40,663 nt of DNA from Chloroflexota bacterium (GTDB lineage Bacteria > Chloroflexota > Anaerolineae > Aggregatilineales > Aggregatilineaceae): positions 1 to 40,663 of the forward strand of contig JAADYV010000181.1 in the NCBI GenBank assembly GCA_010092855.1, written 5' to 3'. The notes below the pieces were generated by a model. That model did no database searches, was not told the DNA's origin, and saw only the letters and a list, made by a program, of their open reading frames with translations. Shown here piece by piece: positions 1,757 to 31,678 of this stretch. The translations under genes and the position numbers were made by a program. Every line of letters begins with the position of its first letter. Position 1 is the first letter of the stretch.

Positions 1757-2278
1757 CTACGTGATGCCCTTGAGCACGTTATCGCGCAGGCTGTAGGCAT
1801 CGTTGGCTTCGAGCGTCATCACATCCAATTCCCGGATCACTTCGGTCACACCTTCGCCGCTGAGCGCAGCTTGCTGCAATGCATCGATCTTGCTCCGGAA
1901 CATTTCCATGTAGTTTAGCATGGCCTCGTCAAAAGCGTAGACAACAGCCAGGTCATCGGCATCAACCTTCACCGCGTCAAAAAAGCCCGAATAACCCGGC
2001 GAGTCAGTTGCGATCCGGTCAATCAGGGTCTGGAACTTGGTCTTGATGCTGCGCGTTTTGCTCATGTATTTCAGGCCGCCCTCGTCCAACAGCAGCTTCT
2101 CGACTTCGACCAGCCGGTTGAGCGCCATCTTCATCTGTTCCGCGACATGCTCACGCATCAAACGATCCGCTTGCCGCCGTGCAGTCATTTCCATATAGCC
2201 GCCAAAGCCCGGCAGCCGCTTGAAGAGCTTTTCGGTTGGCCCGCGCTGGCGTATGATCCGGGTGTACAGGTCTTCCAT
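1757..2278 (-). CDS. Conserved hypothetical protein, helical, probably co-transcribed with the SPFH gene
   Basis: The ORF track starts at 2521, but MEDLYTRIIRQRGPTEKL at 2278 has a good SD (GAGGAGAAAGC). It lies 31 bp upstream of the SPFH gene on the same strand. Confidence 0.65.
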   Translation of the reverse strand: MEDLYTRIIRQRGPTEKLFKRLPGFGGYMEMTARRQADRLMREHVAEQMKMALNRLVEVEKLLLDEGGLKYMSKTRSIKTKFQTLIDRIATDSPGYSGFFDAVKVDADDLAVVYAFDEAMLNYMEMFRSKIDALQQAALSGEGVTEVIRELDVMTLEANDAYSLRDNVLKGIT

Positions 2279-2440
2279 GCTTCGCTTTCTCCTCGCATGT
2301 GATTGATCGAGATTATTCACCATGTGCGTCTGGCTAAAAGCATACAACAGAGCCACACGCTGCACAAACCCATATTTTGGGAGGAATTCCCCGCTGACTG
2401 CTGTTCGCGTGGCATGGTATAATCGTGGTGGAGGGAACAT

Positions 2441-2959
2441 ATGGGTGCCAAACAACAAGGCGCAGACGCTACCAATGGACGGTGGTTGGCGATTCCGCGC
2501 ACGCTCTGTTTTATCACGCACGGCGATGATATTCTGCTACTCAAGCGCGGGGAACACAAGCGTGTTTTCCCCGGTGCTTATAACGGCGTGGGGGGGCACC
2601 TCGAACGCGACGAGGACCCGCGCAGTGGCGCGATCCGCGAGATGCGTGAGGAAACCGGCCTGGAGGTGAACGGGGTGCGGTTTTGCGGCGTGATCCATGT
2701 CGATGTTGGGCATACGAACGGCATTCTGGTGTTCGTCTTCACTGCCGAGGCCACCTCCCGCGATTTCACACCCAATGAGGAAGGTACACTGAACTGGGTG
2801 CCGCGTACCCAGGTGCACACCCTGCCGCTGGTCGAAGACCTGCCGTTGCTTATCCCCCTGATCTTCGATGGTATGTTGGAAGGGAAACCGGCAGCGCTGC
2901 CCTTTTTTGCCCACACCCGGTACGATGCCGACGACCGGCTGGTCATGCGCTTCGCATGA
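2441..2959 (+). CDS. NUDIX hydrolase
   Basis: Nudix box GHLERDEDPRSGAIREMREETGLEV fits GX5EX7REUXEEXGU. Confidence 0.92.
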   Translation: MGAKQQGADATNGRWLAIPRTLCFITHGDDILLLKRGEHKRVFPGAYNGVGGHLERDEDPRSGAIREMREETGLEVNGVRFCGVIHVDVGHTNGILVFVFTAEATSRDFTPNEEGTLNWVPRTQVHTLPLVEDLPLLIPLIFDGMLEGKPAALPFFAHTRYDADDRLVMRFA

Positions 2960-2971
2960 TATACCGCCGTG

Positions 2972-4258
2972 TTACCTGGCGGAGTTGTTGTCGTCGCCAC
3001 CAACATCGACCCATGTGTCACCTGACGCTATTTCCGGTTCGCTGGTTGTGGTAGTTTGAGCACCAATTTCACCCGGTGAACGCAGTTGTGTACGCCCGCC
3101 ATCGTAGGGCAAGTGGATAGTAAAGGTGCTGCCCTGGCCTGCTGTGCTTTGTACCGTAATCGCGCCACCGTGACTCTCGATGATGTGTTTGGCAATGGCC
3201 AGCCCCAGTCCCACTCCATCGAACAGGTGATCGCCAATGCGCTCTGTGCGTTCGAACCGTTTGAACAGGCGCGGCATAAACGCTTCAGAAATACCTACCC
3301 CTTCGTCAATGAAATCCACATCGACACCTTTAGCGAGCTGCCGGGCCATAACCGTCACATCGCCCCCGTCCGGGCTGAACTTGATCGCGTTTTCCAGCAG
3401 TTCGTTGAACGCGCGCACCAGGCCGTCCGGGTCCGCCTGAATAGCAGGCAAGTTGGGTGGCACTTCGATCTTGATGTATGTATTCTGGTCCTCAGCGTCG
3501 TCACGCAGGTCGTCGGCCACCACGTCCAGCAGCGCGCGGACGCTCACCGGGCGCAGCGACGGCTCGATCAGCTCCTGCTCCTGCACAAACAGCAGGTCAT
3601 TCACTAGGCTGATAACCCGGTCTAGGTTGGTGCGGATTTTGCCCAGGCTCATCTGCAGCGCCGGGCCGGTCATCATCCCTTTCTCAACCAGTTGCATATA
3701 GCCACTTGACGATGCCAGTGGTGTACGCAACTCGTGGGCCAGTGTAGTCAGGAACTCGGTGCGCAGTTCTTCCTGGTGCCGCAGCTCATCATAGGCGGCT
3801 TTGATCTCTTCCTTCTGCTGCCGCATTTCTTCCAGCGCCGTGGCATCATTGGCCCGCATCCGCTGGATGAGCGTGCGCACAATATCAAGCATCATCGCCG
3901 GGTTTGACTGGATCGCTTGCTGAAACGAAGCCTTGTCGATCTCCAGCACCGTCACATCGGACAAGGTCCGGACGTTGGCGCTGCGCGCTTCTTCCTGCAA
4001 TAAAGCCATTTCGCCGAAGTATACGCCGGGGCCGCCGGTGCGCAGTTGGCGTTCCTCATCGGCCATGAAGCGCTTGGTAAATTCCACCGTACCCGCGCCA
4101 ATGATGTAAAACTTGTCTTCGAAGGCCCCTTCGCGGCAGATCAACTCCCCACTACCAAACGCGCGTTCCTGTGTCATCTCGGCCAGGGGACGCAACGCCT
4201 CTTCAGCCAGGTCCGGGAAAGCTTGCCGGAGTATTGCCACAGTATCAAATGCCGTCAT
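2972..4258 (-). CDS. Sensor histidine kinase with N-terminal cyclic-nucleotide-binding-like domain
   Basis: The M at 4258 is preceded by GGAGGTGAAACCA. N-terminal ICREGAFEDKFYIIGAGTVEF...GPGVYFGEMALLQEEARSANVRT (cNMP-binding), HisKA FLTTLAHELRTPLAS, HATPase ELLENAIKFSPDGG...DEGVGIS...GVGLGLAIAKHIIESHGG. Confidence 0.9.
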   Translation of the reverse strand: MTAFDTVAILRQAFPDLAEEALRPLAEMTQERAFGSGELICREGAFEDKFYIIGAGTVEFTKRFMADEERQLRTGGPGVYFGEMALLQEEARSANVRTLSDVTVLEIDKASFQQAIQSNPAMMLDIVRTLIQRMRANDATALEEMRQQKEEIKAAYDELRHQEELRTEFLTTLAHELRTPLASSSGYMQLVEKGMMTGPALQMSLGKIRTNLDRVISLVNDLLFVQEQELIEPSLRPVSVRALLDVVADDLRDDAEDQNTYIKIEVPPNLPAIQADPDGLVRAFNELLENAIKFSPDGGDVTVMARQLAKGVDVDFIDEGVGISEAFMPRLFKRFERTERIGDHLFDGVGLGLAIAKHIIESHGGAITVQSTAGQGSTFTIHLPYDGGRTQLRSPGEIGAQTTTTSEPEIASGDTWVDVGGDDNNSAR

Positions 4259-14651: not shown

Positions 14652-16958
14652 GTGGCCAGAAAAAAACTCGGCAAATACGAAATTACAGATCGAATTGGGC
14701 GCGGCGGCATGGCCGAGGTCTACCGGGGCTACCATGCGTCCCTGGACCGCTACGTCGCAATCAAGCTGTTGCATCCGTTCCTGGCGGACGATCCAGAATT
14801 TAAGGATCGTTTCGAGAACGAAGCCCGCAACGTGGCCAAGCTCAAACACCCCAACATCGTACAGGTGTACGATTTCGAGTACGATGCCGAGGGTGAGAGC
14901 TACTACATGGTCATGGAGTTGATCGACGGTCCTACCCTCAAGGACCGACTGTTCGAGTTAACCAGTGCAGCAGATCAAATCCAGTTGGCCGAGGCCATTC
15001 GTATCACCAAGAGTTCTGCCGAAGCCCTGGCTTATGCCCACCAGCGCGGCATGATTCATCGCGACGTCAAACCTGCCAACCTGATGTTGGACGAAGATAA
15101 CCGCGTCGTGCTGACTGACTTCGGGATTGCCAAAATTGTCACCGGTGCCCAGTTCACGGCCAGCGGCGGCATGGTGGGGACACCCGCGTACATGGCTCCC
15201 GAGCAAGGGCTGGGTGAGGCCGGGGATGAGCGCTCCGACATCTATTCCCTGGGCGTGATCTTGTTCCAGTTGGTGACTGGCCAACTGCCCTACGATGCCG
15301 ACACGCCGCTGGGCATCATTCTCAAACACGTCAATGAACCAATTCCGTCGCCGAAACAGTATGTACCAGAGCTGTCCGACGACCTGGAGCGCATAATCCT
15401 CAAATCGCTGGCCAAAGACCCGGAGGATCGCTACCAGTCGGCGGCTGAGTTTGCGGTGGACCTGGGCGCGCTGGACGAATCCGGACGCTATCGCTCACAC
15501 TTTGACACGCAGGTGCGGCTGGCGGCGGCTTCGAAGCTGGCCCCCACCGAAACCACGCCGACACGTCCGCCCATGTTGGACCGTGTGTTGTTTAATTCAC
15601 CTGACACACCAGTTCCGCCAATAGCGCCGCCCGCAGAACCTGATGGACGGTTACACGTAACCTGGATTCTGGGTGCGATTGCCGTGATCGCCTTCATCAC
15701 CGCGGCGGTTCTGTTCTCACTGGCCAGCGACAGCGGCCCTCTGGCCGATTTGTTTAACGGGGAGGGAGATACGACCTCGGAGTCGAACCCGGACGCCCCG
15801 ATAGCTGTTGCAGGCGCTGATCAAACACCCGACGATGGTTCCGCCGCTGGCACCCCGCCAAACGACTCGTCAGACAATAACGGCAACGGCGGCGATGACG
15901 ATTCCTCAGGCTCGAATACGCCAGGGCAATCGCCCCTTCCACCAGGCGTATCCCCTGAGGGGAGCGAGAACGGGACAGAAAGCTCGGGTTCATTGACGCT
16001 CACGGTAACCACGCCGGATGGTCCCGAAAGCGCGGGCGACGATGATGACTCACCGCTGCCGATTCGGTTCTCGCCCACGCCGGTTTCTCCCACACCTGAA
16101 ACGCCATCAAGCACGCCCATCACGCTTACGCTGATGCCGGAATCGTCAACAAATACGCCGACGCCCATCACACCCACGGTGACGCCGGAGCCGCCGACAG
16201 ACACCCCGACTCCTATCACACCCACGGTGACGCCGGTGCCACCCTCCGACACCCCGACTCCTATCACACCCACGGTGACGCCGGTGCCACCCTCCCACAC
16301 GCCGACACCCATTACGCCGACCTTGACACCCTCGCCAACGGTGCCGACGAATACACCCGCGCCGCCAACATCGACCCCGAATCTGACCGCGACAGCGGGT
16401 ATGTTAACCGCCGAAGCTGAGTTCGCGACCCGGGCCGCCAGCACGCCGACACCTAACGCCACGCAGACCTTGCAAGCGTGTGATTTCGACTACATTATCG
16501 ACTACCCGGACGGCACCGAGTCGGAATATGATGAACCACCGGCATCCAATGATTTTGGCAACGAGCGCCTTAAGAATGCCAGCGACGCACCCTGGTCGAT
16601 TAACATCCAGCTGCGCAATACGGGTACCTGTGCCTGGCCCGAAGGTTCACGCCTGAGCTTCAATGAGGTATTGACTGAAAGCCCGGACGAAACCGTTGAT
16701 CTCGACGCTTATCTTGCCGGGTGCAACGAATCGGAACGGCGGGGTGGCTTGAATTTCGCGTACCAGAACCGGGAGAATTTCCTCCTGGACGGTGAAGTGG
16801 ATATCAACGATAATGCCGAGCCGCTGGAATTCACAATGGAACCGCCTCCCCGCAGTGGCTGTTACTATGGCGTTTGGGACCTGCTGCATCCTGCCAGCAG
16901 TGAGGTCACAATTGGCCGCCCGTTGGTCATCACCATTCGTATCTGGGGCGGCAACTAA
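14652..16958 (+). CDS. Transmembrane Ser/Thr protein kinase with Pro/Thr stalk and C-terminal Nbr1-like Ig domain
   Basis: GTG start. YEITDRIGRGGMAEVYRGYHASLDRYVAIKLL, MIHRDVKPANLMLDEDNRVVLTDFGIAKI, GTPAYMAPEQ; TM WILGAIAVIAFITAAVLFSLA; C-terminal WSINIQLRNTGTCAWPEGSRLSF...PPRSGCYYGVWDL. Confidence 0.93.
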   Translation: MARKKLGKYEITDRIGRGGMAEVYRGYHASLDRYVAIKLLHPFLADDPEFKDRFENEARNVAKLKHPNIVQVYDFEYDAEGESYYMVMELIDGPTLKDRLFELTSAADQIQLAEAIRITKSSAEALAYAHQRGMIHRDVKPANLMLDEDNRVVLTDFGIAKIVTGAQFTASGGMVGTPAYMAPEQGLGEAGDERSDIYSLGVILFQLVTGQLPYDADTPLGIILKHVNEPIPSPKQYVPELSDDLERIILKSLAKDPEDRYQSAAEFAVDLGALDESGRYRSHFDTQVRLAAASKLAPTETTPTRPPMLDRVLFNSPDTPVPPIAPPAEPDGRLHVTWILGAIAVIAFITAAVLFSLASDSGPLADLFNGEGDTTSESNPDAPIAVAGADQTPDDGSAAGTPPNDSSDNNGNGGDDDSSGSNTPGQSPLPPGVSPEGSENGTESSGSLTLTVTTPDGPESAGDDDDSPLPIRFSPTPVSPTPETPSSTPITLTLMPESSTNTPTPITPTVTPEPPTDTPTPITPTVTPVPPSDTPTPITPTVTPVPPSHTPTPITPTLTPSPTVPTNTPAPPTSTPNLTATAGMLTAEAEFATRAASTPTPNATQTLQACDFDYIIDYPDGTESEYDEPPASNDFGNERLKNASDAPWSINIQLRNTGTCAWPEGSRLSFNEVLTESPDETVDLDAYLAGCNESERRGGLNFAYQNRENFLLDGEVDINDNAEPLEFTMEPPPRSGCYYGVWDLLHPASSEVTIGRPLVITIRIWGGN
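16163..16320 (+). repeat. 48-bp in-frame tandem repeat in the kinase stalk (about 3 copies)
   Basis: Units TCCTATCACACCCACGGTGACGCCGGTGCCACCCTCC... beginning at 16211 and 16259, plus a diverged copy from ~16163. Encodes PITPTVTPVPPSDTPT. Confidence 0.8.
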
Positions 16959-17096: not shown

Positions 17097-17549
17097 TTAG
17101 CCTTGTACCGGGTCGGGAATGCGGATTGCACGCACGACCAGCCGCTCCGAGAACACGCCGTAACTCTGGTCCCAGTTGGTGCACGTGATCAGGGTCAGCG
17201 TTGGGTCGTTCGTCGGCGCGGTGACGGTCCAGTCATCGGGGGAAACGGTGTTTTTCTCCGTAACCATGAAGGTATACGTGCGATACTCACCTTCGCGAAC
17301 GATGATTTCGTCGCCCACCTCCAACTGATCGAGGTTATAGAACGGTCCGGGATCATCGAAGTTGAATTGGAGATGCGCCGCCAGCACGGTATTGCCCCAA
17401 TCCTCCTCCATCCAGGTCGTTCCTTCCAGCCAGCCCACTGCCCAGCGCATCGCGCTGATATCCCAGGTGCCATTTTCGAACGGCAGCGGTTGAATCTGGA
17501 TCTGCTGCTGCCCGAACTCTGGTAGCTTGGGGATTTCCAGGTAGCGCAC
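17097..17549 (-). other. C-terminal sortase domain inside the giant protein
   Basis: Catalytic triad candidates: His3887 (codon 17373-17375, VLAAHLQF), Cys3951 (17181-17183, TLITCTNW), Arg3964 (17142-17144, SERLVVRA). Spacing and motifs match the sortase family. Confidence 0.88.
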
Positions 17550-20500
17550 GCCATCCGGTGTTGGCTGGATGTACGGGGTGGCGCTGGGAGGCGAAACGAA
17601 CAGCGAGTCGGAGTCTGCCTGGGGAGTCGCTGTTGCTGTCGCTGGCGGCGGTGGCGTGGTTGGCAACGGTGTCGGCAGCGGTGTTGACTCGGAAGCATCT
17701 GGCCCCTGAGAAGGGTCGGTGGAGGTCTCCGGAGAGACCTCTACCTGTTCTTCTGGTCCATCGGGTTCCTGGTCAGCCACATCCGCTTCTGCACCAGATG
17801 GCGGCTCCAGTTCTTCCTCCCCAGCTTCAGCTTCTTCATCAACTTCCGAAACCGGGGTACCGGTGTCACCATCGTCATCGCTGTCCTGGGTGACCAGCAG
17901 TACAGCGGCCCCGCCGATAGCGATGAGGGCGACGATGACAAACAGCCCTGCCAGCGTTGTCCGCCGATTGGAAGGCTGGCTGCCCATCAACAGCATCAGC
18001 GCTCCCACCAGCAGCACGCCGAACAACCCATCCAGGCGGAAGCCCAGCGGAGCGCGTGGCTCACTACCGGTTGCGGGCAGTTCGCTGGCTTCCGGCCCGA
18101 TGTTGACCGTCGCGTCGTCACAGACTTCTTCACCGCCCTCGCGTGTTGCGCAAAAGGTGTTGGTGATCTGCGCCGGGGGCACCACGTCCGCGTTCACGGT
18201 CGTGGTCACCGTGATGATGATGCTTTCGCCCGGCGCTAACGGCTCGGTGGTGTCAACCGTGTAGACGTTGCCTTCGGGGAAGAGCTGGGTTCCACCCTGC
18301 ACGACCGACACGATGGTCAGCGTGGACGGGAATTCGTCTCGCATGGAGAGGATGCCCATCGGGTTGGTACCACCGTTGCGGACCTCAACCGTCCACGTCA
18401 CGGTGTCACCCGGTAGGGCGGATTCCACGTCCACCGACTTGGTGATCTGCGGCTCAGTGGCATTGGGGTCGAGCGTGGGCGTGATGGTTGCGCTGCCCGA
18501 CGGGGTCGGAGTCAGGTAGTTGGCCGGGGTGATGGTCCGATCGACTGTAGCGTTGATTTGTCCATCGACGTTGACACCGGCAACTGCCACTTCAAGTACA
18601 TAGCGTCCAGTCTGGTCCTCGGTGCGCTGGATAGTGGCCGTGATGCTCAAGCCTGCTCCCAGCGTGACTGGTTCAGTGCCCAGCGAGAAGGACGTCCATC
18701 CGGTCTGCTGTGGGGGCCGTGGACCACCGCTGGTCAACATCCAACTGCTGCTGGAGGTGGTCGCCAGCGGAACGATGCGGTACTGCCCGGCCAGCCCCGT
18801 GATGGGCGTTGTGCCATTGTTCGTGACCCGGACAGCGTAAGAAACGCTTTGGCCAGTCACCGGCGCGTTGGGGATGACTTGCAGGATTTCAACCACCAGG
18901 TCTTGCTGGTCGTCACCCTGGACATCCAGTGTCTCCGAGTCGGTTCCGAAGACTGTGTAGTTGTCTTCATCACCAGGAGTGAACAACGTGCTGTAGTACC
19001 CACCGTCCGCCATGACTTCGATGTCGGTGTTGTCTTCACCTTCGGAGACTGTGTAGTCTACGGTTGTCTCGGTTGCAGATTCTCCTGGCTGTAGCACAGT
19101 ATCTTCGAACAGTGTTTCCAGCGGTGTGAGCACCGCGTTGAGGTCTGTGCTGATCGGGTCGGTGGTAAAGAGTGCACGCAGGTGGCAGGTCGAGTCTGGG
19201 TCTACGCCGGGGTATTCCGTTGTGTTGCACCCAATCGGCGATGCGCCCTCGTTGGTGATGGTGAGCGTCACGTTGATGGCATCATCCGGTTGCACAGGGT
19301 TCTCGCTAAGGGTCAGTTCGACACCCAACCGCAGGTCCACCAGTTCTACAGTAGCGGTACCCTCTGCAATAAGGGTTTCCGTACCAGATTGGCCTGTAGC
19401 GTTTACGGATAGTGTCCGGTTTAGCCCGTTGGTGGTCAGGTAGTCAGGCTCACCGATTGGCGGGACAAACGTGCAAGTCACATTGACGAAATCATCAGGT
19501 TCGAGGGTTATCGGGTTCACATGCCCCGCTGGTTCGAGAATAGGTAAGGCGTCCAGTGCAGGAGTGCACTGGAAGTCTTGGGTTAGGCTGGGTATGGTAG
19601 TGCCGACAGTGGCTTGCAGTCCAGTTATCTGTTCTGCGCCAATATTACGTAGTTCGAAGGTGAGAGTTGCTGATTCGCCGGTTTGGAGCAGATCGGGCAG
19701 ACCAAAGCCAGAAGTCTGTTGAACACTCAAGATGGTCGCCGTCATGCCCGCCGTTGAGATGGTCACGCTGGCGGTGTCGGTGGCTACCGGCGTACCGTCA
19801 ACCTGGACCTCAGCCGTATTGTCATACGTTGGGTTCGTGTAGGGGTCTGGCACATCGTAGAACCCTTGCACCACCGTGTCGCCAGGCTGGACCGTGATCG
19901 GGAAGACCGTATCGAACGAGTCTACTCCCGGATCAACCAGGTTGACATTGGCGATGGGGCTTTGGGTGTGATTGGTGATGGTGAAGTTGTAGGTGATCGT
20001 GCTGCCGGGCACTGTCGTCGATGACGTCGGTGTTTTATCCAGCGAAATGATGTCGATGCTCAGCGGCACACTGGCGGTGTCGGTCGAAACTGTCGTACCA
20101 CTCACCTCCAGGGTCGCCGTGTTGTCCAGCGTTGGGTTCGCGAAGATTGGGTCGCCGGGGTCTGTCGGCAGCGGGAAGGTTGCCACATCAGGACCCCAAC
20201 CTCCCGCGGGTACGCTGAGTGTCCCGAAGGGCAACGGATCGAGCAGCGGGTCAGTTATCGTCACGCCTGTTACCGTGCTGCTGGTGTTGTTGGTGATCTC
20301 GAATGTGTACGTGATGGTGTCACCAGGATACGCGGTGGTCAGGTCTGCGGTTTTGGTCAGGGTCAGGATGTCGGTCTGCAGGGCGACGACGGCTGTGTCT
20401 TCATCTTGCAGCACACCGTCAATTGACACGCCCACCGTCGTATTAAGCGTCGGCGAGTCATAGATCGGGTCGCCAAAGGCTGGTAACTCGTAGAACCCGT

Positions 20501-23500
20501 TGAAATTGTTCGGGCCCGGATTCAGGCTGCTGGGCGGCAAGATGTAGGTAAAATCGCTGGGGTCGAAGTCCAGGGTGAAGTTGGTGATCGTGCTCTGGCC
20601 CAGGTTCGTTATGGTGAAGTTGTAGACGATGGTGTCGCCCGGATATCCAGAATCTGGGGTCGGGGTCACCGTCAGTTGCAGCACTTGCACCGTCACCGTT
20701 GCTGTTGCGGTATCCTGCGAAGTGCCATCCTCGAACACTTCCGCGGTGTTGGTGATCTGCGGTTCAGTCGTCGTATCGGGGATGATCACGTCGTAGGTGT
20801 ACTCCCACGCCTGGCCCGGAGCCAGCGCGGGTACCGTTACTGCCAACGGTGTGCCGGGCGGGTCCTCAATGGTGATGTTGTCCGCGCCTTCGAGGTCGTC
20901 GATGTTCTGGATACGCAGCCGGTAGGTGACCGTGCGGTCGGCATCGCTGCCATTGAGCGGCACCGACAATGGCGAGACTTCTTTCGTCAGTGCCAGGAGT
21001 GTGGTGTCCGAGTCGACAACCGAGACGATGGCCGAGTCGGTGTCCTCGAAGTCAGTTGCCGTGTTGGCACCCACCGCTGTTGCCGTAACCGTGTTGACCA
21101 CCTGGTCGTCAGTAACCTGCACGGTGTAGGTGCCGGTCATGGTGAAGCTGTTGCCCGGATCGAGCGTCGCGGGCGGTGCCGGGCCCAGGACCAGCATCGG
21201 GTCGATAACCGCGATGGTTTGCAGCGGTTCGTCGCCGACATTGGTGACTTCGATGGTATAGTCGATATCTTCGCCCACTTGTGCGGAAATCACGTCGGCG
21301 CTCTTGACAACCAGAATGCCGCCGGTCGTGACGTTCACTTCTGCGGTCGCCGAGTCGGAGAGAGCCGTTGGGCCGGTCGCTTCGACAAATACGGTCGATA
21401 CCACCGGTCCCGGCAGGTCAGCCGTGACAGTGCGGTACACCGTAACGCTGTCGTTGGCGAGCAGTGTCGCCGGGATCGTCAGCGCACCAAAGCTGTCCGA
21501 GAGTGTCAGGCCGGTCAGGTCGGTGTCGCTGAAGTTGGACACGACGTAGGTGAAGGTCACATCTGCGCCATCGAGCACGTAGTTTGCGCTCGGGGTGTTG
21601 GTGACCGCCAGGGTGTCATTCGACAGGATGTTGACGGTCTCTGTTGCCTCGACCATGATATCCTGCAAGCCAACCTGGCCGGTAACGGTCAGGGTGTTGA
21701 TGTAGGGGTCGGGGTCCGCGCCGGTCATGGTGCGGGTCACGGTGCGTGTTTCGATCTCACCGGGGTCCAGTTCCGTGGGCCAGGGCGGGCTAACTGTCAG
21801 ACCGGTGTCGGAGTCGGACACGTTCATGCTGGTGATCGTGGTGTCGCCCGTGTTTTCGATGCGGTAGGTGAAGGTCACCAGGGTCCCAACGGTCACGAAG
21901 TTGTCGTCTGCGGTTTTGGATACCGTCAGGCCGCCGCTCACCACGTTGATGCTGTGCGTGGCCACGTCGCTGACCGGAACGGTATTCTGGATACCTTCGG
22001 CGCGCGCGGTGTTGACCACCGGCGAACCATCTGCGGGCGAGATCGTGTGCGTGAAGGAGCACACTTGCGATTCGCCACCGTTGAGGTCAAACGGCCCGCA
22101 GATCGGGTTCGATGAACCGGTCATCGGGTCGAAGACTTCGATGCCCGTGATCGGCTGTCCGGACGGGTTGGTGTGGGTTACCGTCAGCGTATAGGTAACT
22201 TCTTCGCCGAGCGCAGCCTGGGCTGGTGCATCTTTGGTCAACTCCAGTTCGCCAGAAACCAGGCTGATGCTGGCCGAATCTGTCGCTTCGACATCCAATG
22301 GCGGGTCAGACGGTATCTGGCCCACGACCGTGATCGTGTTTTGCAGCGGGTCCGGGTCGCCAGGTTGGATTGTATAGGGGTACATCAGGCGCTGGATGGC
22401 TTCGCCCGGCCCCAACTCGTTCGGTTCGTCGGGCCACACGATGCCATCGAAGACACCGGCAGGTGCGTTCGGGTCAGAGATGGCGATGTTTTGCAGGTTC
22501 AGCGCACTGGGATTCGAGATGTCGACGTAGTAGGTGATGGTGTCTTCTTCGTCGGTGTCGACGACGGCGGCGCATGGGTTGTTGATCGTAGCCGGATTCC
22601 CGTCGATGTCGGGGCCCCCGCACGCCTGCTTGACGACTATCAGATTTCCGGTCTGGATGTCAACCGTTGCCTGGGCCACGTTGACAATCGTGGTCATGTT
22701 GATCGTATGGCCCGTGACCGTCACCCAATTGACGAACGGATCGTCGTCACCGGCGTCCAGGGTATAGGTGTACGTAGTTTCGTAGGTTTCATTCGGATCG
22801 AGGGTGCCGGCGTCACTGCCTTCGGTGTTCGGGAAGCCATCTTCAACCGTCATCGTGCTGCCGGGCATACTCGCGTCAGCGATCACCAGGCGTTCGAGCG
22901 CGATGCCGCCCACGTTGGTGACGCGCACGGTGTAGATCACACTGGTGCCCACCGGCCCCTGTGTGATCGATGACAGCTTCTCGACATTGATACCCGCGTC
23001 GCGGATGTCAATCGTAGCCGAGGTACGGTCGATCACGGGGCTGAGGGTCGGACCGGATTCGCCGGTCACTTGCACCACATTCGTATATTCGGCACCATCA
23101 TAGGGATCGGGCACCGTGACCGTGAAGCTGCCGATCAGTTGTTCGCCGGGCAGCAGCGGGTCGGTGCCGTTGTAGGTGGTGCCTGCTTTCGGATTCGGGA
23201 CATCTGGCGTCCCTGGGTCCCCGTCGTCGTCCCAGTAGGGCTGCAAGCCATACACAAACGTCGTCAACGGCACGACTTCGAATTCATCCACGTCCAGCAG
23301 TTCCAGGCTGGACAGGTCGTCGCCGGTGCCACCGGTGTTGGTGATGATCACGTTGTAGGTGACAGTCTGGCCCTGGCTGGCGGCCTGGATGGCCGGTGAC
23401 ATGCTCAGCCGGATGCCGGGTTGAATGATGTCAACTGCGACGGTCGCCTCTCCCTCAACCGGGTCGGGCAGCGGGTTGCCATCGGCATCGTTGACGTCAC

Positions 23501-26500
23501 CCAGCACTGTGATCGTGTTGACGAACGGGTCCCAGTTGGGGTTGGCCAGCAAGGTCGCAGCGTCGGGCAACGTTATTTCATAGGTAATGAATCCCGTTTC
23601 ATACGAATCGAGCTCTGGATCGCTGACTTCGCACGTCGCGGGATCACCGGGGTCGGGGCAGTCGTAAACCGTGCCACCCGGTGCGTTCGCGGGATTCACG
23701 TCGGTGCCCCGGATGTTGGAAACACGGCGGCTGCCGATGTTGAGGATGCTGATAGTGTAGCTCACGGTGTCACCGGGGTTAGCGGTCAGCGGCTGGGCAC
23801 TCTTGCGCACCAGTAACTGGCTGGAAGTAACAGCCACGGCAGTGCGCGTGCTGTCAAGGACTTCCGTCCGTTGATCGGGTTCAACATTGTCGTTCAGGAA
23901 GCCGACTGCTACCGCGTAGTTTTCCAGCGGATCGGGATCGTCAGCCTGGATGACGTAGGAATAGGTGTAGGTCGCATACCCGCCATCCTCAGTTGGGCCG
24001 GTCGGAGGAGCCAGTTGGCCCACCGGGTTACCCACCACGCCACTGTTCGACCAATCGAACTGGTCCAGCGGGATTTGCACCGGCGACCCACCGCCAAACG
24101 CATCCGTGATCACGATGTCTTGGATGTCGTAAGTCAGGTTGCGGTTTTCGATGCGGACGACGTAGGTGATCTCCTCGCCAACGTAGGCCAGCGGCTGCGA
24201 GGGCGTCTTGGTGATCATCAGGTCTTGCCCCAGCAGGTCAACGGCCAGCTCGTACTCGTTGTAGACTTCGGTGCCGTTGGATGAGGTGCCCGTCAGCGAG
24301 GCCAGGTTGACGACCGGGTCGCCCATCGTGATCGCATTCAGCGAGATCGGGCCACCGGGCGGCGCGTAGCAGAATATAACCTCTTCACCTGCGTAGAGCA
24401 TGGCTGGCCCGCGCGGACCAACTGCGCCGGGAGGCAGCGTGGGAAGCTGTGCCGCGATGGCGGCTTCGAACTGCTGCTGCAGCGTATTCGGCTCGGTGCC
24501 GATGGGCAACAGCATGGGGTCCACCAGTTGGATGTTTGCGACGTAGGATAGCTCCTCGCCAGGTTGGATATCGGTCGAGGCGGTGTTGGTGATGGTGAAG
24601 CAGTAGTCAACGGTCTGACCGGCGTCTGCTTCTGGCATCCCATCGCCATCCGGCAAGCTAATGGGCAGATTGTCCGGCAGAGGATCCCCGGTTGTACTAT
24701 CTTGCACCGTCTTGACGATGGCGATTTCCGGGTCTTCCAGGTCGACTTCAGCGATGACTTCGTTGGTGATGTCACGGTCCAGGCCATCGGGCACAATTAC
24801 GCGCCCAGCGGCGGTCACAGTGTTCACCAGCGGGTCCGGCGCATTGATCGGAATGGTGTATTCCACACCTTCCACCAGGATGAAGTCGAACGGAGCGAAC
24901 AGCGGAATCGGGTCGGGGATCAGGTCACCAATCAACGAGTCCACCAGCGTCACGTTTTGGATGTCGTAGGGGCTGATGTTGGTCAGGGTGTAGTCATACG
25001 AGATCGTGGTCCCTGGCGTTGCACTGTCAACACTGGGTTCTTTGGTCAGTTGCAGCGGGTTCGACGTGAAGATCATCAGCTCGAACCAGGTGATGAACGT
25101 GACATCTGGATCGGCAGGGTCTGGGAACTCGGCAGTGATGACGTTGACCAGTTCTTCTGGATCGGTAGGCAGCACCGTGCGCGGGACCGCGGTCGTCAGG
25201 ATTTCGCCGGGACCCATGATACCGGTGGTTTCGAAGGGTTCAGGGGGATCCCCGCTCCCATCGTAGTCCAGCGGGATCGGGCTGGGCTGCAGCAGCGAAT
25301 CGTACACGGTGACGGTGTAGTAGTCGTAGGGATCATCGTCGTCTTCGGTTACGTTTTCGACTGTGATGTCATAGGTAACCACGTCTCCGGCAAATGCCAG
25401 GAACATGTCGTTACGCGGCCACTTGAAGACGAAGATCGGACTATAGACGTAGTACCGGAACTCCTGCTGACATTGGTTGGACCCGGCCACTTCGGAGAAT
25501 GTTGCCGTAAGCCGGTCGCCCATGTAGTCCTCACCAGCGCCATAGTACTCGTTGGTGATCAGTTTTTGGAACGATTGCAGAGTTGCGGTCTGTCCCGGTT
25601 CCAGCGTGCCGATGGCCCCCGGCCAGTTGATGACCGGGTCGTTACCAGGCTCGCCCCAGTTGAGGGTTTCATCGATGACGATGTTGTTGATGGTTTGGGT
25701 GCTGACATTGGTGAACCAGATGTCCCATTGCAGGTCTTCACCCAACACATCGTCCGGATCGTCGTCCAGGTTAGTCACAACCAGGTCAAATTCAATAGGG
25801 CACGCGATATCGATTGTATGTTCCGCCTGGCCAGAAACGGTGCTGCCATCAGGCTTTCTACCGCTGACGACAAACACGTTGGTCAGGGGTGTGGGCACAG
25901 CTTCGACAGAAGCGATGGTGAAGCGGCCTACTACCGTGTCGCCTGGTGGCAGGATGCCGGGCTGCCCAGGCCATGTCCCAATCTGGTCGTAGTCGATGCC
26001 GAAGTCGGCATGTGTGATGACTGGGAAGTTGTACGGCGGCTGGTTCAGCACCGTGTCGGTGTAGCTGAGCACGGTCAGCGTCTGGCTGTGCGAGTTGTTC
26101 TTGATCTCGATGTCGTAACTGATGGCTTGTCCGGCATCGGCGGTAGATGGACCAGTTTTGATCACGCCGATCATCGGGATCAGCACTACATCTGCCAGGC
26201 CGTTGCCCTGGAACTCCTGGCCGCTGAATTCAGCCAGCACACGGACGTGCATCGTGAAGACCGTACCGGGCAGCGCGCCGGGTAGGTCGATGGTATGCAG
26301 GAAATTGCCCGAAATCAACCCGCCATCGGGGAACGTGTCGGCGGTGCCGACCAGTTCATAACCATACGGGTCGCCGGAGTCTTCCTGCGCCATGTTGTAG
26401 ATGCGCACGTTGGTCAGTTCAACGCCGGAGTTGTTGTAGACGTTGTAGGTGAACGTTTCTTCATCGCCATTAACGGCGTTCTGTGGGCCACCAACTTCGA

Positions 26501-29033
26501 CGACGATGTCCTCTGTCGCGACCGTGATGCGTGTCGCCGCGCGGATCGAGACTTCCTTACCCTCGGCATCGGTGCCATACATGGTCACTTCCACCACGAA
26601 CGGCGACTCCTCGATGTCCCTGGCCAGGATAGTGTAGTTGAATGTGCCCGATACCGGCTCGAACGGCACAATCGAGCCCGCTGTCAAGTCGTCAATTTCT
26701 TCGCCACAGATAACCGGCTGCGCGTGTGGGATGCAGTACGTGGCTGTTAAGTTGGTCAGCGTGACCGCGCCCACGTTTTGCGCCGCAAAGGTGAAGGTAA
26801 GTTCCTCGTCTTGCATCGCCGCGCCATCCGGCCCCAGGTCTACCAGCAGTTCGGCGTTAACCTGGGCATTGGAGATGTCCAGCGTCCGCACCGTGCTGTC
26901 GCTTAGCGCTCCCAGGTCATCACCAGGGCAGCTATCATCCGCGATCACTTCGAAGATCATGTGCAGTGGATCGGGATCGGACCCGGTCACCAGGTAGGTC
27001 ACGGACGTCGTGGCCGTTTCATCTCCGCTGCCCGTTGCTTCCAGGCGTCCTGGGGTGGCAGTCGGCCAGTTCATGGGAATCGCCATCATCACTGGCACAT
27101 CGGTATCCGTAAGCAAGTCGCGCCGGTATTGGTTAACGACCACGTTGCAGATGGGCGCTGGTGTTTTGTTCTCCACCGTGATCTCGTATACCACGTTACC
27201 CCCGCGCAGCACGGTGGGGCGATCGGGTTCGGTCACGATGACGCTGATCCCGATATCCGGGCTGGCGATATCGATGATGTGATCATCCTGCCCGTACAAT
27301 ACGCGGTTGGTGCCCGACACGCCACGTACTCGCGCAACACTGCTCAGCGGGTCTGGATCAGCACCGGTGATGTCGTATTGCCAGGTCAGCGTTCGCTCCC
27401 CGTTGGGCAGCAGCGTAACGGTGGATAGGTCTGGTGCACTCCCGACTGGTGTAATGACGTACTCCAGGTCGGAAATGATCGTGTCTGAACTCTCGTTTTC
27501 CAACAGCAGTCGGTACTCAACGGTTTGCGGTGGCGTGGCGATATCCACCGGGTCACCGGTGCCTGGATTAACGGCAGTCAGGGTGACCTTCAACGAAGAG
27601 TCGGCCAGGTCCACCGAGGTCGCGGCCACCGCGTCAACGGCTGCGCCGCCAGTGCCAACGCCTTTGGCTGTAACCTCTACCGTATTCACCAGCGGGTCGG
27701 GGTTGGAGGGTATTACCGTGTAGGTGGTTGTCGCCGCGAACTCCTGGCCGGGGTCGAGTGTCGTGCCGAATGGTACGGGCACAACCCCGGTCAAGCTGTC
27801 GACGATCCACAAGTCTTCTAGCTGGATTTCGCCGGTGTTTCGAACAATGATCGCATATGTGATTACATCGCCGGGTTCAGCGGGGGGCGAAACCACGTTA
27901 GGACCGCGCTTGATCTCCGTCACGTTCTTCGAAATCGAGACATCCGGCAGTTCCACTTCCACCGGGGTACTGGTAACCTGCCGTGAAACCTCGATGGAGC
28001 CATCTGATACCCGCAGTTGCCCCGTCAACGAATAGGTTTCTGGGGCGGGATTGCTCGGAATCGGGATATCAAAGATCTCACACTGAGCCTGTTCGCCGGG
28101 GGGCAGATTGCCTGTCCCAAAGACCAGCGGTGTCCCGGTCATGTCCAGCCAGTTTTCGAAGTCGGCACACGCGGTCTGGAACCCTGGCACCGACGAGGTC
28201 ACCGTGATGTCGGTGATGGTGTTGCCGGGGCGCACATTCTCGATCACCAGCGTGAAGTCAACATTCTGGTTGGGGGCAGCAGAGGCCACCGAAGGGTCAA
28301 ACGACACGACCTCGAACCCTGGCCCCAGGATTTCGACCTGGTCATCATCGAAGTCAACTGTGTCGTTGGGGTCAACGCCGATGTCATCCTTGTCGTTTTC
28401 GGCTTCGGCAGCGGCTTTTACGCGGATAGTGAGATCGCCGTTCACGGCTGCGGGCACGTCATACTCCACCACGGCCCAGGCCAGTTCCCCGTCCAACAAA
28501 ACTTTTTCCGGATCAGAGGTGGGGAACTGCAACGGAACGTCAATCACTGCCAGCCCGCTGCCACTGGTATCCCCAAAGACAAGTTGGGCCTCGACCATGT
28601 GGAGTCGTTCTGGGTTGTTGCATTCCGGGTCTCCACCGGTGGAATTCCCAACTACGACCAGCCAGCTCATCGGGTCACCGACTTGCCGTGATACGACTTC
28701 CGGTGTTGGCGTGGTCTCCGTATCTTCGACAGTAGCCCCATAGTTCGGCTGCTCAGGATCAGGCGGTCCGGTGAACGGTGCAGCCAACAAAAAGCCGTTC
28801 ACCGCCAGTTTACACGGGAAGCGGTCATCGTCTGGCAACGCCGGGCGAAGGGGGGCGTCCGGGGTGGTTTCCGCGCGCGGATCGTCTTGCCCATCCGCCG
28901 GGCCGTTTATGTCGTCCTGGACATCCCCTGCATGGGGTTGGTGGTCCAGGGCTAACACTACCTGTACCTGGCTAATCAACAGCGCCAGGACAATCAGTAG
29001 TGTACTCGACCAGGGAACTATCTTCCTTTTCAT
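17097..29033 (-). CDS. Giant 3978-aa surface protein: signal peptide, about 28 DUF11-like repeats, LPATG sorting motif, two TM helices, C-terminal sortase domain
   Basis: Single uninterrupted ORF; SD AGGAGACGTCT before ATG. Signal peptide MKRKIVPWSSTLLIVLALLISQVQVVLA. Repeats of the form PGDTITYTFEITNNTSSTVTGVTITDPL. C-terminal LPATGSEPRAPLGFRLDGLFGVLLVGALMLLMGSQPSNRRTTLAGLFVIVALIAIGGAAVLLV, then an acidic/PT linker and a sortase-like domain (…TVLAAHLQF…TLITCTNW…SERLVVRA). Confidence 0.93.
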   Translation of the reverse strand: MKRKIVPWSSTLLIVLALLISQVQVVLALDHQPHAGDVQDDINGPADGQDDPRAETTPDAPLRPALPDDDRFPCKLAVNGFLLAAPFTGPPDPEQPNYGATVEDTETTPTPEVVSRQVGDPMSWLVVVGNSTGGDPECNNPERLHMVEAQLVFGDTSGSGLAVIDVPLQFPTSDPEKVLLDGELAWAVVEYDVPAAVNGDLTIRVKAAAEAENDKDDIGVDPNDTVDFDDDQVEILGPGFEVVSFDPSVASAAPNQNVDFTLVIENVRPGNTITDITVTSSVPGFQTACADFENWLDMTGTPLVFGTGNLPPGEQAQCEIFDIPIPSNPAPETYSLTGQLRVSDGSIEVSRQVTSTPVEVELPDVSISKNVTEIKRGPNVVSPPAEPGDVITYAIIVRNTGEIQLEDLWIVDSLTGVVPVPFGTTLDPGQEFAATTTYTVIPSNPDPLVNTVEVTAKGVGTGGAAVDAVAATSVDLADSSLKVTLTAVNPGTGDPVDIATPPQTVEYRLLLENESSDTIISDLEYVITPVGSAPDLSTVTLLPNGERTLTWQYDITGADPDPLSSVARVRGVSGTNRVLYGQDDHIIDIASPDIGISVIVTEPDRPTVLRGGNVVYEITVENKTPAPICNVVVNQYRRDLLTDTDVPVMMAIPMNWPTATPGRLEATGSGDETATTSVTYLVTGSDPDPLHMIFEVIADDSCPGDDLGALSDSTVRTLDISNAQVNAELLVDLGPDGAAMQDEELTFTFAAQNVGAVTLTNLTATYCIPHAQPVICGEEIDDLTAGSIVPFEPVSGTFNYTILARDIEESPFVVEVTMYGTDAEGKEVSIRAATRITVATEDIVVEVGGPQNAVNGDEETFTYNVYNNSGVELTNVRIYNMAQEDSGDPYGYELVGTADTFPDGGLISGNFLHTIDLPGALPGTVFTMHVRVLAEFSGQEFQGNGLADVVLIPMIGVIKTGPSTADAGQAISYDIEIKNNSHSQTLTVLSYTDTVLNQPPYNFPVITHADFGIDYDQIGTWPGQPGILPPGDTVVGRFTIASVEAVPTPLTNVFVVSGRKPDGSTVSGQAEHTIDIACPIEFDLVVTNLDDDPDDVLGEDLQWDIWFTNVSTQTINNIVIDETLNWGEPGNDPVINWPGAIGTLEPGQTATLQSFQKLITNEYYGAGEDYMGDRLTATFSEVAGSNQCQQEFRYYVYSPIFVFKWPRNDMFLAFAGDVVTYDITVENVTEDDDDPYDYYTVTVYDSLLQPSPIPLDYDGSGDPPEPFETTGIMGPGEILTTAVPRTVLPTDPEELVNVITAEFPDPADPDVTFITWFELMIFTSNPLQLTKEPSVDSATPGTTISYDYTLTNISPYDIQNVTLVDSLIGDLIPDPIPLFAPFDFILVEGVEYTIPINAPDPLVNTVTAAGRVIVPDGLDRDITNEVIAEVDLEDPEIAIVKTVQDSTTGDPLPDNLPISLPDGDGMPEADAGQTVDYCFTITNTASTDIQPGEELSYVANIQLVDPMLLPIGTEPNTLQQQFEAAIAAQLPTLPPGAVGPRGPAMLYAGEEVIFCYAPPGGPISLNAITMGDPVVNLASLTGTSSNGTEVYNEYELAVDLLGQDLMITKTPSQPLAYVGEEITYVVRIENRNLTYDIQDIVITDAFGGGSPVQIPLDQFDWSNSGVVGNPVGQLAPPTGPTEDGGYATYTYSYVIQADDPDPLENYAVAVGFLNDNVEPDQRTEVLDSTRTAVAVTSSQLLVRKSAQPLTANPGDTVSYTISILNIGSRRVSNIRGTDVNPANAPGGTVYDCPDPGDPATCEVSDPELDSYETGFITYEITLPDAATLLANPNWDPFVNTITVLGDVNDADGNPLPDPVEGEATVAVDIIQPGIRLSMSPAIQAASQGQTVTYNVIITNTGGTGDDLSSLELLDVDEFEVVPLTTFVYGLQPYWDDDGDPGTPDVPNPKAGTTYNGTDPLLPGEQLIGSFTVTVPDPYDGAEYTNVVQVTGESGPTLSPVIDRTSATIDIRDAGINVEKLSSITQGPVGTSVIYTVRVTNVGGIALERLVIADASMPGSTMTVEDGFPNTEGSDAGTLDPNETYETTYTYTLDAGDDDPFVNWVTVTGHTINMTTIVNVAQATVDIQTGNLIVVKQACGGPDIDGNPATINNPCAAVVDTDEEDTITYYVDISNPSALNLQNIAISDPNAPAGVFDGIVWPDEPNELGPGEAIQRLMYPYTIQPGDPDPLQNTITVVGQIPSDPPLDVEATDSASISLVSGELELTKDAPAQAALGEEVTYTLTVTHTNPSGQPITGIEVFDPMTGSSNPICGPFDLNGGESQVCSFTHTISPADGSPVVNTARAEGIQNTVPVSDVATHSINVVSGGLTVSKTADDNFVTVGTLVTFTYRIENTGDTTITSMNVSDSDTGLTVSPPWPTELDPGEIETRTVTRTMTGADPDPYINTLTVTGQVGLQDIMVEATETVNILSNDTLAVTNTPSANYVLDGADVTFTYVVSNFSDTDLTGLTLSDSFGALTIPATLLANDSVTVYRTVTADLPGPVVSTVFVEATGPTALSDSATAEVNVTTGGILVVKSADVISAQVGEDIDYTIEVTNVGDEPLQTIAVIDPMLVLGPAPPATLDPGNSFTMTGTYTVQVTDDQVVNTVTATAVGANTATDFEDTDSAIVSVVDSDTTLLALTKEVSPLSVPLNGSDADRTVTYRLRIQNIDDLEGADNITIEDPPGTPLAVTVPALAPGQAWEYTYDVIIPDTTTEPQITNTAEVFEDGTSQDTATATVTVQVLQLTVTPTPDSGYPGDTIVYNFTITNLGQSTITNFTLDFDPSDFTYILPPSSLNPGPNNFNGFYELPAFGDPIYDSPTLNTTVGVSIDGVLQDEDTAVVALQTDILTLTKTADLTTAYPGDTITYTFEITNNTSSTVTGVTITDPLLDPLPFGTLSVPAGGWGPDVATFPLPTDPGDPIFANPTLDNTATLEVSGTTVSTDTASVPLSIDIISLDKTPTSSTTVPGSTITYNFTITNHTQSPIANVNLVDPGVDSFDTVFPITVQPGDTVVQGFYDVPDPYTNPTYDNTAEVQVDGTPVATDTASVTISTAGMTATILSVQQTSGFGLPDLLQTGESATLTFELRNIGAEQITGLQATVGTTIPSLTQDFQCTPALDALPILEPAGHVNPITLEPDDFVNVTCTFVPPIGEPDYLTTNGLNRTLSVNATGQSGTETLIAEGTATVELVDLRLGVELTLSENPVQPDDAINVTLTITNEGASPIGCNTTEYPGVDPDSTCHLRALFTTDPISTDLNAVLTPLETLFEDTVLQPGESATETTVDYTVSEGEDNTDIEVMADGGYYSTLFTPGDEDNYTVFGTDSETLDVQGDDQQDLVVEILQVIPNAPVTGQSVSYAVRVTNNGTTPITGLAGQYRIVPLATTSSSSWMLTSGGPRPPQQTGWTSFSLGTEPVTLGAGLSITATIQRTEDQTGRYVLEVAVAGVNVDGQINATVDRTITPANYLTPTPSGSATITPTLDPNATEPQITKSVDVESALPGDTVTWTVEVRNGGTNPMGILSMRDEFPSTLTIVSVVQGGTQLFPEGNVYTVDTTEPLAPGESIIITVTTTVNADVVPPAQITNTFCATREGGEEVCDDATVNIGPEASELPATGSEPRAPLGFRLDGLFGVLLVGALMLLMGSQPSNRRTTLAGLFVIVALIAIGGAAVLLVTQDSDDDGDTGTPVSEVDEEAEAGEEELEPPSGAEADVADQEPDGPEEQVEVSPETSTDPSQGPDASESTPLPTPLPTTPPPPATATATPQADSDSLFVSPPSATPYIQPTPDGVRYLEIPKLPEFGQQQIQIQPLPFENGTWDISAMRWAVGWLEGTTWMEEDWGNTVLAAHLQFNFDDPGPFYNLDQLEVGDEIIVREGEYRTYTFMVTEKNTVSPDDWTVTAPTNDPTLTLITCTNWDQSYGVFSERLVVRAIRIPDPVQG
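17892..18080 (-). other. LPATG motif (18066-18080) followed by TM1, an RR-containing loop and TM2
   Basis: LPATG-SEPRAPLGFRLD-GLFGVLLVGALMLLMG-SQPSNRRT-TLAGLFVIVALIAIGGAAVLLV. LPXTG, hydrophobic helix and RR match a cell-wall sorting signal, but a second TM helix follows. Confidence 0.85.
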
Positions 29034-29183: not shown

Positions 29184-30470
29184 TCATGAATACCTGTTTT
29201 CATCCGTGAAATTGGTCCTAAATTCCTCCGAATTATGACAGTTTTTGACACCACTTAAACATGTGTATAGCTGTAATAGGGTGTCAGCCGCGCGCCCCCA
29301 ATGAAATCGGCTTCGACCCAGGCGTTGCGCTTGCCTGGCCAGCGCCAAACGCACCGGTGTGTTTCGAAGCTGTCGCAACGCTTTCAGCGCAGCCTCTGGT
29401 GTGGCGTCTACCAGTACCAAACCACAGCGTTCGCGCTGTACAACTGCGGCTATCTCGCCCACTGGTGTGACCAGCAGCGGACGACCCACGCCCAGCGCGT
29501 AGAATCCCAGGTTAGGCATGAAGTACTGGCTGTTCGGGTTGCGCGCATTAAGCCCATAATATACGACATCCCCGGCTGCCACCACTTCGGGGACCTCGTG
29601 CAAGGGCACCCAACTCAGCAACCGGATGCGTTCACAGTTTTGCGCCGCGCGCTGCAGGTCCACTTTTTGAGGACCGTCCCCACCAATGATCAGCCAGACG
29701 TCCGGTATTTGCCGCACAGCGTCGACCAGCGGCAGCAACAGGCGGTCCGGGTTCAGCCAGCCCACGTATACAACCACTAGCGCACCTTCCGGTATTCCCC
29801 ATTCTTCGCGAAGCACGCGTGCACGTTGGTCAAGTTTCGCGTGATCTGGTAGTGGCTGACTGTTATGTACCACCCACACGCTTCCGCCCATCAGGCGGAA
29901 TCGCGCCGCCAGCCGTTCCCCTACCGTGACCACCGCATCCGTTCGCGGCGTCAACCACCGGTCCAGCCGTTCCAGTCCTCGGGTCAGCCATGAACCGACG
30001 TTGTCACGCACCATGCCGGGATAGTATTCGCGTGCATCGTAGATCACCGGGCACCTCGCCAGCCTGCCATATGCCATCCCCACCGGAAGTGTATCCAGGT
30101 CGTGCGCATGTACAATGTCAGGCTGAAAGCGGCGTAGTTCCTGAAACGCGCGCCACCAGAACACGGGCAGTGTTCGCAGCAGACGGCGTCCCGTCTGGTA
30201 TCCGGCCTGAACCTGGATGTGCGTGACCACAACCGACGTAGGTGCAGTAGCGGGCTGGTTTGACCAATCTGCCAGTGCTGCCGAGAGCGATCCTGGCGTG
30301 TGCTCGATGGTATGCACCGGGTGGCGGCCTTCCCGGTCCCATGCAATGACGTGCATTTGGTAACCGGCCAGGGCCAGCGTATGGGCCTCCTTCTCGACGC
30401 GCACATCTGGCCCGTGCGCTCTAGAAATTAACATTGCTACCCGTTGGCGTGTGCCGCGTGTTTGTAACAT
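29184..30470 (-). CDS. Glycosyltransferase (GT4-like)
   Basis: RVAMLISRAHGPDVRVEKEAHTLALAGYQMHVIAWDREGR...DIVHAHDLDTLPVGMAYGRLARCPVIYDAREYYPGM...VVYVGWLNPDRLLLPLVDAV. Lies ~5 bp downstream of the next glycosyltransferase. Confidence 0.88.
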   Translation of the reverse strand: MLQTRGTRQRVAMLISRAHGPDVRVEKEAHTLALAGYQMHVIAWDREGRHPVHTIEHTPGSLSAALADWSNQPATAPTSVVVTHIQVQAGYQTGRRLLRTLPVFWWRAFQELRRFQPDIVHAHDLDTLPVGMAYGRLARCPVIYDAREYYPGMVRDNVGSWLTRGLERLDRWLTPRTDAVVTVGERLAARFRLMGGSVWVVHNSQPLPDHAKLDQRARVLREEWGIPEGALVVVYVGWLNPDRLLLPLVDAVRQIPDVWLIIGGDGPQKVDLQRAAQNCERIRLLSWVPLHEVPEVVAAGDVVYYGLNARNPNSQYFMPNLGFYALGVGRPLLVTPVGEIAAVVQRERCGLVLVDATPEAALKALRQLRNTPVRLALARQAQRLGRSRFHWGRAADTLLQLYTCLSGVKNCHNSEEFRTNFTDENRYS

Positions 30471-30475
30471 AAGAT

Positions 30476-31678
30476 TTACGCCAGAATCTCCTGGTAAAAC
30501 ATCATAAACTTACGCATTTCCGTCTGCCAGTTGAACACTTGCTGCGCTGCGCGCACGTTTTTTCGGAAGACTTCCTGGTTTTCCTCGCTTAGAATCGATT
30601 TCAGCGCGTCTGCAATCGAACCGGGATCGTTGGGGTCGCACACTACGCCAAGCCCGTGCGGTTGAACGAGACGCCGCAGCACGAACATGTCCGAAGCCAC
30701 CACCGGCACCCCTGCGCCAATAGCTTCGTAAAGCTTGTTGGGCTGCCCTGCCCGCGTATTCCACGACTCGGCGCGCATCAGGATCGCGGCGGCATGTGCG
30801 GTACGGATGGTGGCCGCGACTTGCTCCGGTGGGACTGGTGGCAGAAAGAATACACGCTGCGCGATGCCTAGCTGGGCTGCTAATCTTCTGGTCTCTTCGC
30901 ACGATTCGCCTTTGCCCAGGAAGACCAGCGTCACGTCCTCTGGCAGCAGCGCGATGGCCTTCACCAGTTCGCTGACGGCGCGTCGCCGGTTGGTGATCTC
31001 GCCGGTGTGTACGATGATGTGCTGCCCCTCTTCGGCCACTGTTTGTAGGTCAACTGGTGCGCGTGCGTCTTCCGGCACAGGATCGACCGCGTTTTGGATG
31101 ACGACTGGATGCACACCATACCAGCGTGCCATCAACCGGGCACGTCCCTCGGCCAGTCCCAGGACTCCATCTGTGTGTTGTGCTAGCTTGCCTTCCAGCC
31201 ACATGGAAAGTGGTCGATTCACGCGGTGCCACAGGTTGGTGGTGCGTGTCCGGAAAGGAGACTGGAATAAGAACAACTCATGTGCATCGTACACTAGCTT
31301 GGCGCGTGGGTTGAATCGTCTGCGTGCCAGGGTGAGCAAAATTAACGCCGGAAGGTCATGCGCGTGATAAACGCACGTAGGGGTGGCGCTCAGTGCACGT
31401 AGAATCTGCCAGGCTTGCAGCAGGTGTCGGATCCAGCGCCAGGGTTGCCATAGGCTTGCGCCCAAACGCCAATAACGTATCCGCCGCAGCTCGTAGCCAT
31501 CGACTGTTTCCCGATCCGGCAGTGTGCCACCGGATCGTTGAGTGCCCACTACCAGCACGCGCCAGGTGGTGGCCAGTGCTGCCGCTTCGTTACGCACCCG
31601 TCCATCATGGGCGATATCATTGAGCACGAGCATGATAACGTCGTAGGAGGCGGTTGTGGATTTTTGTTGTCTGCGCAT
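30476..31678 (-). CDS. Glycosyltransferase (GT4-like)
   Basis: VIMLVLNDIAHDGRVRNEAAALA...VYHAHDLPALILLTLARRRFNPRAKLVYDAHELF...IIVHTGEITNRRRAVSELVKAIALLP...AIGAGVPVVASDMFVLRRLV. Confidence 0.88.
   Translation of the reverse strand: MRRQQKSTTASYDVIMLVLNDIAHDGRVRNEAAALATTWRVLVVGTQRSGGTLPDRETVDGYELRRIRYWRLGASLWQPWRWIRHLLQAWQILRALSATPTCVYHAHDLPALILLTLARRRFNPRAKLVYDAHELFLFQSPFRTRTTNLWHRVNRPLSMWLEGKLAQHTDGVLGLAEGRARLMARWYGVHPVVIQNAVDPVPEDARAPVDLQTVAEEGQHIIVHTGEITNRRRAVSELVKAIALLPEDVTLVFLGKGESCEETRRLAAQLGIAQRVFFLPPVPPEQVAATIRTAHAAAILMRAESWNTRAGQPNKLYEAIGAGVPVVASDMFVLRRLVQPHGLGVVCDPNDPGSIADALKSILSEENQEVFRKNVRAAQQVFNWQTEMRKFMMFYQEILA

Follow-up and report, generated by a model that had tools for sequence, protein, structure and literature searches.

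A giant surface protein encoded by a Chloroflexota bacterium carries an LPXTG sorting motif and a sortase in one polypeptide. We read it as a single-gene, self-sorting surface protein that would have arisen by gene joining, and we give this reading a probability of roughly 0.6. Judged from sequence, an intact sortase and an LPATG motif share a single chain and the same predicted side of a membrane hairpin, and the two are conserved together in Anaerolineae. The sortases known so far are free-standing enzymes acting on many substrates; in this design, which is apparently lineage-wide and includes forms lacking any membrane helix, a single molecule combines enzyme and substrate. The fusion of a sortase to an LPXTG protein is a new version of the sortase/LPXTG system. 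The original prediction knew of no described example with this layout, and our literature searches, which covered open-licence papers, likewise found no natural sortase-substrate fusion; engineered ones were found.

The window analyzed here is the 40,663-nucleotide contig JAADYV010000181.1 (C561) of a fragmented MAG (5.45 Mb, 662 contigs, 87% complete). As predicted, one ORF runs from the repeats to the sortase: it has an ATG start and is a single uninterrupted frame of 3978 aa on the minus strand (window positions 29033-17097). The residue numbers originally assigned to LPATG and to the catalytic His, Cys and Arg were correct (Table 1). The interval 17097-18080 covers LPATG through the stop codon, and the feature proper is the entire ORF. 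A hydrophobic segment near the N terminus (ORF residues 5-23; frame residues 10-28) has the appearance of a typical signal peptide, from which we infer Sec export. The ectodomain matches Pfam DUF7507 (E = 3e-103, nine stretches) and DUF11 (E = 5e-59, four stretches). Lysine is very scarce in the protein (33 of 3978 residues), as it is in most relatives, except one (L228) at 5%.

Table 1. Features of the giant gene and its neighbors in the window, and related loci elsewhere.
Feature	Position	Strand	Residues or length	Basis or detail
Giant surface protein gene, C-terminal sorting signal and sortase	17097..29033	minus	3978 aa	
Putative Sec signal peptide (MKRKIVPWSSTLLIVLALLISQVQVVLAL)	28947..29033	minus	~1-29	Sequence and hydropathy
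DUF7507/DUF11 repeat ectodomain	18144..28766	minus	~90-3630	Pfam
Last DUF11	18144-18449	minus	3529-3630	Pfam
LPATG sorting motif	18066..18080	minus	3652-3656	Sequence; alignment of orthologous tails
Helix 1 (TM1)	17985..18035	minus	3667-3683	Hydropathy; AlphaFold helix 143-159
RR turn	17961..17966	minus	3690-3691	Same in six closest orthologues; inner face expected
Helix 2 (TM2)	17889..17969	minus	3689-3715	Hydropathy; AlphaFold helix 165-191
Disordered linker, acidic then Pro/Thr-rich	17568..17885	minus	~3717-3822	pLDDT <50; composition
Sortase catalytic domain	17127..17459	minus	3859-3969	PF04203; Foldseek 4d7w
Catalytic His (predicted)	17373..17375	minus	His3887	Kept in 97/97 sortase domains
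Catalytic Cys in TLITC (predicted)	17181..17183	minus	Cys3951	Kept in 97/97 sortase domains
Catalytic Arg (predicted)	17142..17144	minus	Arg3964	Kept in 97/97 sortase domains
Two glycosyltransferase genes	29184-30470 and 30476-31678	minus		Pfam; directly upstream of giant gene
Protein kinase with N_BRCA1_IG-type domain	14652-16958	plus		Convergent with giant gene; adjoins giant in relatives too
L195, LPATG protein				Complete sorting signal; same genome
L196, DUF11 protein	G000:C70, frame 3-2186			Ends LPATGYPPDEE, stop
L197, DUF11 protein	G000:C135, frame 113-2122			Ends LPATGYPPDEE, stop
L005/L056, PLD-LysM protein with C-terminal sortase	G000:C237, 1-2757	minus		Without LPXTG; cut by contig end
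L230, unfused pair				LPETG...RRGNGKGD, stop; sortase frame 12 nt downstream
L231, unfused pair			giant of at least 2421 aa	LPETG...RKRK, stop; sortase frame 46 nt downstream
L232, unfused pair				LPETG-TM-basic tail ORF; sortase frame 110 nt downstream

The C-terminal domain is a sortase by profile, fold and residues, and its predicted activity is that of a transpeptidase. It matches the Pfam Sortase family (PF04203) with E = 3.1e-23 and 82-87 bits against a curated cut-off of 26.6, and the tail of the giant alone reaches 43.5 bits with TIGR01076 (cut-off 39.35). The nearest PDB sequences to the region are sortases. It contains the His, the Cys within TLxTC and the Arg, a triad present in every one of the 97 sortase domains compared. 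In an AlphaFold model of residues 3525-3978, a confidently modeled DUF11 beta-sandwich leads into a disordered LPATG; two helices come next, and a second disordered stretch, the linker, connects them to a sortase beta-barrel of moderate confidence. A model of the sortase by itself was also of moderate confidence (mean pLDDT 70.6). The top Foldseek match of the AlphaFold model is sortase C1 of group B Streptococcus (GBS SrtC1, 4d7w; probability 1.00). The domain originally called a sortase from its motifs thus passes the family profile, while class assignment failed: no cut-off was reached among the NCBIfam models for sortase classes C, D, E, F and GN, the best being class D with 42.2 against 165 bits. 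For this reason, LPXTG specificity is assumed for this enzyme. Class C and D sortases are its nearest known counterparts, by fold (SrtC1) and profile score (the NCBI class D model), but the window's enzyme falls far below each class cut-off and is without a C-terminal membrane helix.

Upstream of the enzyme lie the parts of a sorting signal: the LPXTG motif, then the hydrophobic TM1 and the basic RR. Hydropathy, composition and AlphaFold agree on the anticipated order of helix, RR, second helix and acidic to Pro/Thr-rich linker; the linker is about 105 residues long, with 23 Asp or Glu and no Lys or Arg over 93 residues. The LPXTG pathway of Gram-positive bacteria likewise combines the motif, a hydrophobic helix, basic residues, a His-Cys-Arg cysteine transpeptidase and a Sec-exported, repeat-rich protein. 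Unlike in that pathway, substrate and enzyme here form one chain, two helices (or none, or four) precede the enzyme, and the signal is internal, with 323 residues after LPATG, rather than at the very C terminus. Across eight aligned orthologous tails, the L, P, T and G of the motif and the His, Cys and Arg of the enzyme are invariant, and the 15 residues past the motif vary.

According to the positive-inside rule, basic residues lie on the inner face of the membrane. The RR turn would therefore be inside, and both LPATG and the sortase would be on the outer face. We counted the helices between motif and enzyme in 51 entries at the standard cut-off and found none in 20, two in 28 and four in 3, an even number in 51 of 51; with a looser or tighter cut-off, 4 or 6 entries turn odd, helices merging or falling just short. 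Even numbers would put motif and enzyme on one membrane face, in keeping with the two-helix hairpin that had been proposed.

The relatives compared were MAGs labelled Anaerolineae or Aggregatilineales in the phylum Chloroflexota. Orthologues with the same tail occur in independent assemblies from several genera and are about 3.5-5.2k aa long (3687-5173 aa for family-search frames). An order-wide search of 154 genomes placed the layout in six more families, where the motif reads LPATG, LPTTG, LPQTG, LPVTG, LPLTG or LPETG. Within the class Anaerolineae, 11 families or more contain the fusion. Among 399 genomes sampled from the phylum outside this class, the matched sortases sat in short frames, under 600 aa among the matches listed. 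What had been proposed from a single case is thus a widespread family, with a helix-free form in addition.

To see how motif and enzyme are associated, we set 53 long-frame sortases from an Anaerolineae sample against 41 short-frame, mostly stand-alone ones. [LI]PxTG stands just before the sortase in 49 of the 53 and in none of the 41; shuffled stretches would be expected to give 1.7 in 53. The difference has a p value of 2e-22, which overstates the evidence since the sequences are related, although the occurrence of two forms in eleven families would limit this inflation by kinship. On these counts, chance placement of the motif upstream of a sortase is excluded. Retention of the layout across at least 11 families strongly argues that motif and enzyme work together, and the fused surface protein and sortase looks like a widespread, apparently class-wide self-anchoring design.

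The helix-free giants occur in four other Anaerolineae families (f24, f34, f58 and f61), measure 2.2-3.8k aa and often number several per genome. Their tail has [LI]PxTGF[AST]P followed by the sortase within about 25 residues, with zero helices between. LPxTG lies 165-172 residues ahead of the end of the sortase match in 18 entries, and two more have IPxTG. The one helix-free giant that was scanned contains SdrD_B and SpaA-type domains. In three genes read over their full length, the N-terminal segment is hydrophobic and resembles a signal peptide.

Unfused pairs in other families suggest an origin for the gene. In these pairs, an LPXTG protein with a helix and basic tail is followed by a same-strand, stand-alone sortase gene (Table 1). 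Joining such a pair in frame would produce exactly the layout of the window. The fusion may thus derive from an LPXTG-protein gene and the sortase gene that followed it. TM1 would then correspond to the helix of the former sorting signal and RR to its charged tail, and the former signal anchor of the sortase would have become TM2. In a quick, weakly supported tree of sortase domains, the motif-bearing fusions fall in several places and three or four state changes are needed; one clade comprising every motif-bearing fusion was not rejected by an AU test (p = 0.59). Because split and fused forms exist within one class, an operon-fusion history is testable. Another split arrangement, at L118, begins with an LPVTG protein and ends with a sortase gene, and a DsbA-like gene for an oxidoreductase separates the two.

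We propose that Sec exports the protein until the hairpin after LPATG stops transfer, which would leave LPATG and the sortase outside, the latter on a flexible tether of about 100 residues. Cys3951 would then attack the Thr3655-Gly3656 bond, most simply in its own chain; given the long tether, a neighboring copy could be cut just as well. The resulting acyl-enzyme would hold the 3.65k-aa ectodomain until an amine accepted it and anchored it. The acceptor probably belongs to a peptidoglycan precursor, as the same genome encodes penicillin-binding transpeptidases. The remnant, G-TM1-TM2-linker-sortase, would amount to an ordinary membrane sortase, for which other LPATG proteins may be substrates as well. 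The AlphaFold model counts against self-sorting in that its LPATG is undocked as well as disordered.

Engineered proteins make self-processing plausible. STEPL chains, in which cargo, LPETG and sortase follow one another, free their cargo once a Gly nucleophile is added (Warden-Rothman 2013, as described in PMC11561820); as in the giant, motif, linker and sortase share a chain with the cargo, which in STEPL is freed by the chain's own enzyme, as is proposed for the giant. Chains in the order sortase-LPETG-target self-cleave, 20-40% even during synthesis (PMC2901362). STEPL, Mao's method and BISOP (PMC2901362) differ from the giant in being man-made and soluble, and BISOP has the reverse order. 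As STEPL is described, the helix-free Anaerolineae form is its nearest natural match. We tentatively go one step further and suggest a natural self-sorting display: each sortase would act in cis, severing its own chain a single time to anchor the giant ectodomain, and the helix-free form would be secreted whole as a natural STEPL that sheds its enzyme after one turnover. If cis cleavage is true, the fusion would represent a single-turnover or substrate-delivered sortase, show how the little-studied Chloroflexota anchor giant surface proteins, and offer ready-made natural scaffolds for protein ligation.

The same parts could be used differently. A stand-alone sortase might cut LPATG and anchor the ectodomain, freeing the fused sortase for other LPATG proteins, with fusion securing co-expression and a 1:1 supply. 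Four other sortase matches and separate LPATG proteins in the same genome speak for such processing in trans, as do the stand-alone sortases of most relatives and the split operons, which show that both parts function when separate. No match to PF00746 (Gram_pos_anchor), a short and weak model, rose above its cut-off anywhere in the genome. We therefore listed LPXTG proteins with an LPATG DNA pattern, which counts LPATG with CTN leucine codons only and leaves other LPXTG variants uncounted. One protein has a complete sorting signal (L195); two others (L196 and L197) end in LPATGYPPDEE with no helix, basic tail or frameshifted downstream remnant after it, and these ends represent sorting signals that are either helix-free or truncated. 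Processing in trans, however, leaves unexplained the retention of the motif in 49 of 53 fusions, its invariable placement on the same side as the enzyme, and its fixed distance from the enzyme in the helix-free form. We consider it unlikely, though worth keeping in view. The predicted one-gene, self-sorting system thus holds up as a layout, seen in at least 11 families; it is on its exclusive action in cis that the separate LPATG proteins and four sortases bear.

Motif and sortase might also not be used together at all, LPATG being a relic while the sortase acts only on other substrates, or the motif serving as a lid that blocks the enzyme. The motif is altered in two giants (LAGTG and APQTG) and absent from a few fusions, namely the WD40-sortase proteins (L113-L115) and a PLD-LysM-sortase (L005). 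The last contains the sortase most closely related to the window's (74% identical) and can be read as a wall-binding protein that delivers a sortase; it indicates that sortases have also been recruited as C-terminal modules where the motif is absent, and further substrates may be open to the fused enzyme. A relic, however, should vary from family to family as its flanks do, and this motif is invariant; we find this account improbable. Much the same applies to an intermolecular polymer, in which fused sortases would link giants through an ectodomain nucleophile as class C pilus sortases do. The nearest fold is the pilus sortase SrtC1 and the DUF11 domain resembles pilin domains, but hardly any lysine is available in this or most other giants examined, and the only match to a YPK-like pilin lysine motif in the giant is a chance one inside the sortase; pilus-type polymerization is disfavored. 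That an assembly chimera or frameshift joined two genes might be suspected in a MAG of 662 contigs, but the same tail recurs in giant frames of separate assemblies and families with the same neighbors in conserved order. We reject this explanation as having a negligible chance of being right. Self-sorting is the reading we retain.

The order around several giant copies is that of the window: an opposite-strand kinase, the giant and two glycosyltransferases. The same two-glycosyltransferase neighborhood is found at L046, L047 and L049. These glycosyltransferases, though conserved, are not part of the proposed mechanism. The three WD40-like proteins (L113, L114 and L115) are about 550 aa long, with WD40-like repeats and a C-terminal sortase and without LPXTG or a membrane helix. 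L050 and L069 (also L107) have an extra domain of about 110-130 residues past the sortase, with shared sequence (...GEKIRIHY...FGMFDVYID...).
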